The notes beneath the pieces are model-generated. The model searched no databases, was not told the DNA's origin, and saw only the letters and a program-made list of their open reading frames with translations. Below, piece by piece: positions 17,801-18,663 of a DNA stretch of 64,000 nucleotides. The stretch covers positions 2,976,001 through 3,040,000 of the forward strand of contig NC_087381.1 in assembly GCF_963675165.1 (NCBI RefSeq), written 5' to 3'. This stretch comes from Halichondria panicea. Lineage: Eukaryota; Porifera; Demospongiae; Suberitida; Halichondriidae. Within the stretch, counting starts at the first letter, position 1; each line of letters begins with the position of its first letter. The position numbers and the translations under genes are program-made.

Positions 17801-18663
17801 TACAAAACGTCGATAGAGATCCTCCTGTCTAATAATTGCTCTCCCAAAACTGTGTGATATTGAAGCAGTTTTTGGATAATTATAACAGCACGAGTGTAGG
17901 GCAATACATAAAATTGTACGCACTGACAACAAACGCAAATGCAAGGAATCGTACGTTAAATTAATAAGTATCTTGCATACCATACTGAGTATTAAGTAAC
18001 TCCTTCCAGGTTAGAGGAGGCACTGATTTCAAACGGTGATCAAGCATTTCACGAAGACAGGTGCTGCCATCATTAGCATACCGCTTTCTGATGCTATCTA
18101 GTATGACATCCTCAACATGTAGAGCTTGTCCAATCTCGAACCATTTGTTCCGAGAGTCGTACAGTTTAGTGTGAGCTTCGTTTAAATCATCCATTGTTAG
18201 TGCGTCATCTGTATATATAATACAAAAAACTGGCCGGCACTATAATTATATGTACATACCGCGGTACATGTAGCTATACTGTATAAGAGCACCCCCATGC
18301 ATGTAGTTAATTGGCGCCAACATTAAAGCTATAATTACCCATTTGAGGCCCAGGATTGCTCTCAACGTCTCCAGCTAACAGCAAGAGGTGGGCAAGAGAG
18401 TGGAGCAACACAGCAATCAGTATCACCAGGAGACCAACATTTCTTGTGCGTTTTAGGAATTCAGTTTTATCTTGAGAGCTCAGAAATGTGAGAATATACA
18501 ATAAAAGCAATCCTCCTTGAACCACTTTCGCAGTAGTACCCACTGTATCACTGAAGTGTAGAGGCTGCTGTTTTGTCGAGGGAGCTTTACTGTGTGGTCG
18601 TGATCCCCTCCCACCACTGAATAGCCCAATGCGAGCTCTCCACAACTCCACAGAGATCCCCAT
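8886..18663 (-). CDS. Gene B: complete 2A-headed death-domain/ankyrin-repeat protein
   Basis: Seventeen exons: 18663-18339, 18208-17981, 17736-17402, 17291-17228, 16744-16032, 15903-15876, 15734-15541, 15480-14851, 14753-14652, 14099-14001, 13867-13769, 10482-10282, 10178-9981, 9914-9717, 9659-9462, 9246-9046, 8990-8886. They splice to one 3918-nt frame (1305 aa). Exon lengths equal those of gene A except exon 5 (713 against 725). Order along the protein: hydrophobic segment (about 1-105), 2A with Pro at 106, death domain 1 (112-184), death domain 2 (190-296; LTPGEQTDVKGAEANQLAVI), conserved module (330-555; ends near IFPLTLNQEAELKDLGVIQL), acidic linker (556-629), about 18 ankyrin repeats (630-1271), short tail ending in FNRN. 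Skipping would release a protein of about 1200 aa. Intron 11 is 3.3 kb and filled with repeats. No disabling change was seen, so this is the best reference copy of the family. Death domains suggest recruitment of downstream adaptors, and ankyrins ligand or partner recognition; both are inference. Confidence 0.9.
10502..12797. mobile_element. Composite mobile insertion in intron 11 of gene B
   Basis: The left end AGGGTGTCATACAGG and the right end CCTGTATGACAACC are inverted. They match the ends of the compact element at 51509-51693. The interior contains polypurine/polypyrimidine GGGGGGATATCCCCC, a second inverted pair (about 12328-12370 with 12725-12770, containing GAATCAGC and CACTTGGAAAGTCC), a 19-bp perfect hairpin, and GCAAAACAGCCCCAC direct repeats near 10930-11010. 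The same intron of gene D has a short version at about 57113-57344, so the insertion probably predates the B/D split and was later enlarged by nested insertions here. No transposase is seen. Confidence 0.55.
12173..12218. repeat. Perfect 19-bp hairpin
   Basis: TAGAACACACCTAGCCAAG and its exact complement are separated by 8 nt. It sits inside the composite insertion of gene B intron 11. Most likely it is a fold-back element or a remnant of one. Confidence 0.8.
12891..13147. repeat. CA microsatellite of about 250 bp inside a dispersed repeat
   Basis: It begins as CACG repeats and becomes an uninterrupted CA run. The right flank is GCCGTATACCTCGCTTGCAC and then ATGCGCACTGAGGCAT, the same sequence that follows shorter CA tracts at about 60000-60080, 6300-6362 and, in reverse, 35110-35220. 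The microsatellite is therefore a built-in part of a repeat family that expanded here. It lies in intron 11 of gene B. Confidence 0.95.
14230..14650. repeat. Dispersed repeat in intron 9 of gene B, also found between the kinase genes
   Basis: It shares long stretches with about 24750-25280, including GATGTGCTCTGACA, GGATCAAAGAGTGTTTACTA and TGTGTATTGTTATTGTACTA. It ends with an inverted GGATATC/GATATCC pair. Its length is about 420 bp here and about 530 bp in the other copy. No open frame of note; it is probably a non-autonomous element. Confidence 0.65.
18346..18369 (-). other. 2A ribosome-skipping motif of gene B
   Basis: It encodes DVESNPGP at residues 99-106, directly after a second hydrophobic stretch (residues about 76-98, LLVILIAVLLHSLAHLLLLAG). 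The first hydrophobic stretch lies near residues 48-64. The exon ends ten nucleotides after the Pro codon start, and the next exon opens with death domain 1. Conservation of all eight motif residues between A and B fits selection for function, although the copies are also young. Confidence 0.9.

Follow-up and report, generated by a model that had tools for sequence, protein, structure and literature searches.

A conserved leader exon with a canonical 2A motif at its end precedes a death-domain/ankyrin gene of the sponge Halichondria panicea and recurs before several death-fold gene families

The window analyzed here, a 64-kb stretch of the H. panicea genome, contains on its minus strand two genes, A and B, which open with a leader exon carrying the 2A octapeptide DVESNPGP, and a third, broken leader copy, gene C. 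Their features are as follows, in window positions.

18339–18663, minus strand: gene A leader exon (coding part), encoding a 106-aa leader with 2A
18604–18663, minus strand: conserved first 20 residues of the leader, MGISVELWRARIGLFSGGRG (pS/pN between families and alignment A3)
18478–18534, minus strand: marginal hydrophobic stretch, residues 44–62 (Kyte-Doolittle 1.51)
18376–18432, minus strand: strong hydrophobic stretch, residues 78–96 (Kyte-Doolittle 19-mer mean 2.73)
18346–18369, minus strand: 2A octapeptide DVESNPGP, residues 99–106, predicted skip site Gly105/Pro106
18209–18338, minus strand: predicted phase-1 intron 1 of gene A, GT...AG, 130 nt
17981–18208, minus strand: predicted death domain 1 exon (profile and fold)
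17402–17751, minus strand: death domain 2 exon, start 17751 or 17736 (Pfam Death, E 5.5e-4; its 20.4 bits fall below the cut-off of 22.6 bits)
16023–16748, minus strand: gene A middle region, weak Pfam TRADD-like_N match below cut-off
14707–15480, minus strand: gene A ankyrin repeats (Pfam Ank_2, E 4.6e-35)
8013–8337, minus strand: gene B leader exon with 2A, octapeptide at 8020–8043
7657–7884, minus strand: predicted gene B death domain 1 exon, same splice sites as gene A
53288–53614, minus strand: gene C broken leader, frameshifted and with NPGP replaced by NHGP

The coding part of the gene A leader exon comprises 325 nt, from the ATG at 18663 to the final base at 18339, and matches exactly the interval delimited in a preliminary description of this DNA. 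Its 106-aa leader ends in DVESNPGP, after which come codons for Gln and Met and the first base of an Asp codon that the intron splits; the donor G|GTAATT lies directly 3' of 18339, in phase 1. Joined to the acceptor before 18208, the exon reads NPGP-QM-D-DALTMDD (G|AT = Asp), in frame with the death domain, such that the phase-1 junction proposed earlier holds as a prediction. The two octapeptides reported for genes A and B, starting at 18369 and 8043, are both present and are the only two occurrences of D(V/I)ExNPGP in the window, compared with an order-0 expectation of 4.8e-5 for 64 kb and no match in 100 dinucleotide shuffles. At 18346–18369 and 8020–8043 the StopGo/2A core (D/G/C/N)(V/I)ExNPGP is found, and the hexapeptide preceding it in gene A, LLLLAG, belongs to a known upstream motif class, the L-rich class ending in (A/S/C)G. 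Two hydrophobic stretches had been claimed for the leader: the one at residues 78–96 is strong, flanked by charges of +2 before and -4 after it, while the one at residues 44–62 proved marginal, which leaves a single clear membrane-spanning candidate.

Gene A is predicted to continue, behind leader and 2A, with a death domain, a second death domain, the middle region and the ankyrin repeats. Profile and fold comparisons show that its exon 2 has a six-helix death fold and is related in sequence to death domains; a Pfam scan of death domain 1 (window copy) gave no match. Five pieces of gene A scanned with Pfam yielded death and ankyrin domains and no NACHT, and the scanned pieces were likewise free of endonuclease, ORF1 and reverse-transcriptase domains. 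Further ankyrin-like open frames were seen by eye below the repeats, at 9001–10506. Gene C is absent from the preliminary description; its leader frame and 2A were lost together, and death-domain pieces are retained despite the frameshifted leader. Elsewhere in the window, a long dinucleotide repeat (12838–13201), which reads in frame as a CV/TH run, lies between ankyrin exons of gene A. On the plus strand, a tandem intron-poor gene pair encoding Kelch repeats along with a protein kinase domain occupies 22157–24424 and 25549–27879, and an open frame at 43541–44182 contains an integrase core domain (Pfam rva_4, E 3.7e-67).

A search of the 131.5-Mb genome with a 57-aa leader query gave 29 matches. 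Nineteen family loci carry the exact 2A, and all 19 were read. Each has a GT donor 7 nt past NPGP, in phase 1, and a death-domain-like exon downstream with approximately 35–100% identity to that of gene A. The claim of a 2A placed between a hydrophobic leader and a death-domain/ankyrin gene is thus upheld, with a canonical L-rich 2A in gene A and an unchanged order in all 19 family copies. In 17 of them (exceptions L024 and L028), an open frame runs from the conserved Met. The strong hydrophobic stretch before the 2A is retained in the copies read. A weaker match, L027, is a decayed leader with NLEP and without exact 2A. For 18 of the 19 copies, no NACHT was found within 20 kb downstream among the matches listed; the remaining copy, C6:4772811, has one 10.1 kb downstream, which may or may not belong to the same gene.

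Pooled over 18 leaders, pN/pS amounts to 0.38 (153 pairs, which are not independent and include L024, not open from its Met, with the stop codon skipped). The octapeptide alone, at 0.16, is the slowest-changing part tested within the window family. Ten death-domain exons gave 0.57. Between F1 and F2 leaders, two leader families of this genome (15 pairs), the N-terminal 20 codons show a pS of 0.448 and a pN of 0.085 (pN/pS 0.19), and the last 21 codons differ at 87% of synonymous sites, which is near saturation, and at 23% of nonsynonymous sites. By these substitution patterns, purifying selection acts on the leader exon, and the gene A leader is a real, conserved element.

The predicted splicing was compared across the 35 death-fold sites in which a donor-like GT follows the 2A. 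In 33 of these, an AG in compatible phase and with an open frame lies at most 60 nt from the domain; L019 and L039 have no such acceptor within this distance. In 22 of the 33, the AG directly adjoins the domain, each time in the same position, and since a phase-compatible AG often arises by chance, this is the stronger point. A protein search with the spliced product retrieved no protein that joins leader and death-domain exons without the intron; in P0035, P0045, and P0046, the reading frame continues across a short open intron.

Genome-wide, the DNA pattern for D(V/I)ExNPGP occurs 116 times (71 + 45), and the reversed pattern not once. We read 51 of these sites, the 19 copies of the window family among them. 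A death-domain- or CARD-like exon lies within 1.5 kb downstream of 40 of the 51 by matches to profiles whose seeds came from seven of the loci and which were then iterated on this very set: 35 sites have a death-domain match and six a CARD-like match, one site counting in both groups. Antisense and shuffled controls gave no match, and within the window the death-fold profiles match genes A, B, and C only. Five of the 40 are weak (L032, L034, L036, L055, and L056), resting on a short piece for which PDB gave no death domain. The CARD-like group resembles CARD by fold, with Pfam matching none of the six pieces scanned. Eleven sites are without a profile match: L040–L044, L046, L051, L052, L058, L059, and L060. 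LINE-like frames follow the 2A in L040, L042, L044, and L046, with PHD and endonuclease domains over the Pfam cut-off in L040 and L046, and L041 shows, by eye, a death-domain-like start at the locus edge. In L051, L058, and L059 the 2A is followed by long same-frame sequence, in which Pfam found a weak bZIP (L059) or nothing (L051 and L058); these are possibly further 2A gene families.

A NACHT exon lies 0.8–5.5 kb downstream on the same strand at no fewer than 35 of the 116 2A sites (32 within 3 kb), a lower bound drawn from 102 + 76 matches listed, the second set coming from contigs that could matter. Among the same matches, none lies upstream of a 2A site or on the opposite strand within 6 kb. 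Thus, 2A leaders sit on NLRs too, and L061 contains leader-2A, death domain and NACHT region in that order. An immune sensor without NACHT, as described earlier, stands for gene A in its five scanned pieces, but not for the 2A device, given these sites. Judged from its positions, the device is shared by several of the genome's death-fold families, including NACHT NLRs. Two clusters were observed. At C14:0.50–1.63 Mb (L030, L031, and L061), 41 2A sites, nearly all DVEANPGP or DIEANPGP, are grouped, at least 29 of them with a NACHT exon downstream; by its composition this is an expanded 2A-bearing NLR family. At C2:7.745–7.838 Mb, eleven DVESNPGP sites fall within 93 kb, and both sites read (L029 and L045) lead to CARD-like exons. 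In L045, the first CARD-like exon is followed by a death-domain-like and then a second CARD-like match.

The nearest known system is the sea-urchin NLR leader, named as a precedent in the preliminary description. The gene A arrangement fits it: in Roulston et al. (2016; PMC4981915), an N-terminal hydrophobic leader ending in D(V/I)ExNPGP likewise precedes a death-fold immune receptor, and the same layout is found here with a predicted intron at the join. Skipping in vitro was put there at approximately 80%, a qualitative estimate, and a non-skipping mutant was found mainly in the Golgi of HeLa cells. As in sea-urchin NLRs, 2A leaders of the sponge also precede NACHT exons, at a minimum of 35 of the 116 sites. 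In contrast to the 26-aa sea-urchin leader (PMC4981915), the leader described here has 106 aa, its own phase-1 exon and a conserved MG(I/V)..ELWRARIG start. Moreover, the window family has a death-death-middle-ankyrin order, gene A yielded no NACHT, and several families carry the device; it is known here from sequence, whereas activity was shown there. New with respect to the sea-urchin type, as read from the genome, are the receptor architecture, the longer exon-encoded leader, the use in several death-fold families and the link to retroelement leaders discussed below.

With viral StopGo/2A of the L-rich class, gene A shares the canonical octapeptide and an L-rich hexapeptide ending in AG; in Li et al. 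(2026; PMC12846837), L-rich upstream motifs end in (A/S/C)G and motif 6 is active in reticulocyte lysate. Unlike the viral sequences, the 2A lies in a cellular gene, near the N-terminus behind a leader and not between viral proteins. The same study describes 2A skipping in cellular genes as rare, with sea-urchin NLRs as a likely example. If active, skipping would be a regular feature of the immune-type genes of this one animal (116 sites, with 40 of 51 read before a death-fold exon and at least 35 of 116 before NACHT). In sponges, the NLR repertoire of Dysidea avara is comparable: that study (PMC12909245) reports expanded NLRs with N-terminal death or CARD domains, some with predicted transmembrane domains. 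The words "NPGP" and "recoding" do not occur in its text. A 2A leader might account for some of the membrane segments predicted in sponge NLRs.

We consider it probable that the leader exon is spliced to the death-domain/ankyrin gene and that 2A skipping would yield mostly free cytosolic receptor, with a likely minority remaining fused and routed to secretory membranes. Skipping is expected to work because the octapeptide is canonical and LLLLAG falls into the L-rich class, members of which are active in assay. Together with the sea-urchin value, this suggests that most ribosomes would release the leader at the Gly-Pro bond, giving a free cytosolic receptor that starts with Pro, while a likely minority of chains would stay fused to the hydrophobic leader and enter the secretory membrane system. 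Only ten residues separate the strong stretch from the last residue of the leader; given the length of the ribosome exit tunnel, it would still be inside the tunnel at the moment of skipping, and a skipped leader would consequently leave as a short tail-anchored-like peptide; SRP would meet the stretch with a receptor attached only on the unskipped chain. From the flanking charges, the receptor of an unskipped chain would be expected on the side away from the cytosol; since the second stretch is marginal, it is uncertain how often the chain would cross the membrane and on which side the receptor would lie. The gene A receptor is likely an immune sensor, and if skipping and dual targeting hold, one mRNA would supply free and membrane-targeted forms of it.

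Skipping might also work without a meaningful second pool: the receptor would then be purely cytosolic, and the 2A would serve to remove a leader that either arrived together with the exon or has a function in its own right. The stricter conservation of the 18 leaders relative to the ten death-domain exons, as if the leader mattered in itself, speaks for this, the conserved N-terminus allows such a function, and the tested motifs, L-rich and others, skip at 92.7% or more in PMC12846837, leaving little unskipped product. However, with the similarly built sea-urchin leader a discernible share stayed unskipped, and the form unable to skip was targeted (PMC4981915); the strong hydrophobic stretch before the 2A is also retained in the copies read, though an L-rich 2A may itself require that. 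On balance, we regard the lack of a second pool as rather unlikely. That exon 1 is spliced in with a 2A inactive in this context, leaving a signal anchor only, appears highly improbable: P0001, a close relative with an intact leader and NPGA, a change expected to stop skipping, demonstrates that such a leader can exist, but the octapeptide is the slowest-changing part tested and is kept in 28 of 32 proteins related to the leader (it is lost in P0017, P0018, and P0019). Hardly any weight falls on a retroelement remnant adjoining a death-domain gene by chance. LINE-type frames bearing a 2A do occur in the genome, with PHD and endonuclease domains in L040 and L046; against this stand the death-domain-like exon behind 19 of 19 family copies, the conserved phase-1 donor, the signature of purifying selection and the lack of any retroelement domain in the scanned pieces of gene A.

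All rows selected for alignment A3 share an invariant MG...ELWRARIG.F at the N-terminus and LL..AGD.E.NPGP at the C-terminus, the invariance of the 2A following from that selection, and the middle varies in length and sequence. The A3 profile matched 149 proteins, 120 of them listed; among the matches listed, 87 are new. All 87 have the 2A, which is part of the profile itself, and 55 contain [WY]R.RIG in their first 60 residues. Eight listed matches look like retroelement proteins, two by endonuclease-type sequence and six by an AHR-type motif, which we take to be a feature of LINE ORF1. In the seven scanned, Pfam placed Exo_endo_phos over the cut-off in P0132 and Transposase_22 below it in P0114, and gave no retroelement support in P0112, P0116, P0121, P0126, and P0128; P0133 is the eighth of the set.

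Non-LTR (LINE-type) retrotransposons bearing a 2A are reported to have been described by Odon et al. (2013), a study cited in PMC11512398. Like these elements, gene A has its 2A near the N-terminus; unlike them, its scanned pieces are without endonuclease, ORF1 and reverse transcriptase. Eight of eight LINE-type proteins from other sources, a set preselected by A3 with the 2A included, match a profile of the receptor N-terminus only, MG...[WY]R.RIG.F. This shared start suggests a common, possibly mobile origin, and the leaders of receptors and LINE-type proteins read as products of common descent, in either direction. The WRARIG start is absent from the PHD/endonuclease LINE-type frames of this genome, and a search without positive control found no ORF1 of the P0116 kind in it.

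We tentatively propose that the leader exon may be a mobile cassette of ATG, WRARIG, membrane stretch, 2A and phase-1 donor, homologous to LINE leaders and captured through exon shuffling, so that it became exon 1 in a number of unrelated death-domain/CARD-like families, NLRs included. If so, a translational switch of selfish elements would front a large part of the cytosolic immune repertoire of this animal, with one mRNA giving rise to free and membrane-bound sensors. With a leader motif common to both groups, it becomes directly testable whether cellular 2As originated in a retroelement or in the host. Among other 2A proteins, P0127 and P0079 contain a YR.RIG motif, which in P0079 lies after one 2A and before another; their post-2A parts have, by eye, the look of transposon DNA-binding sequence, with no Pfam match.
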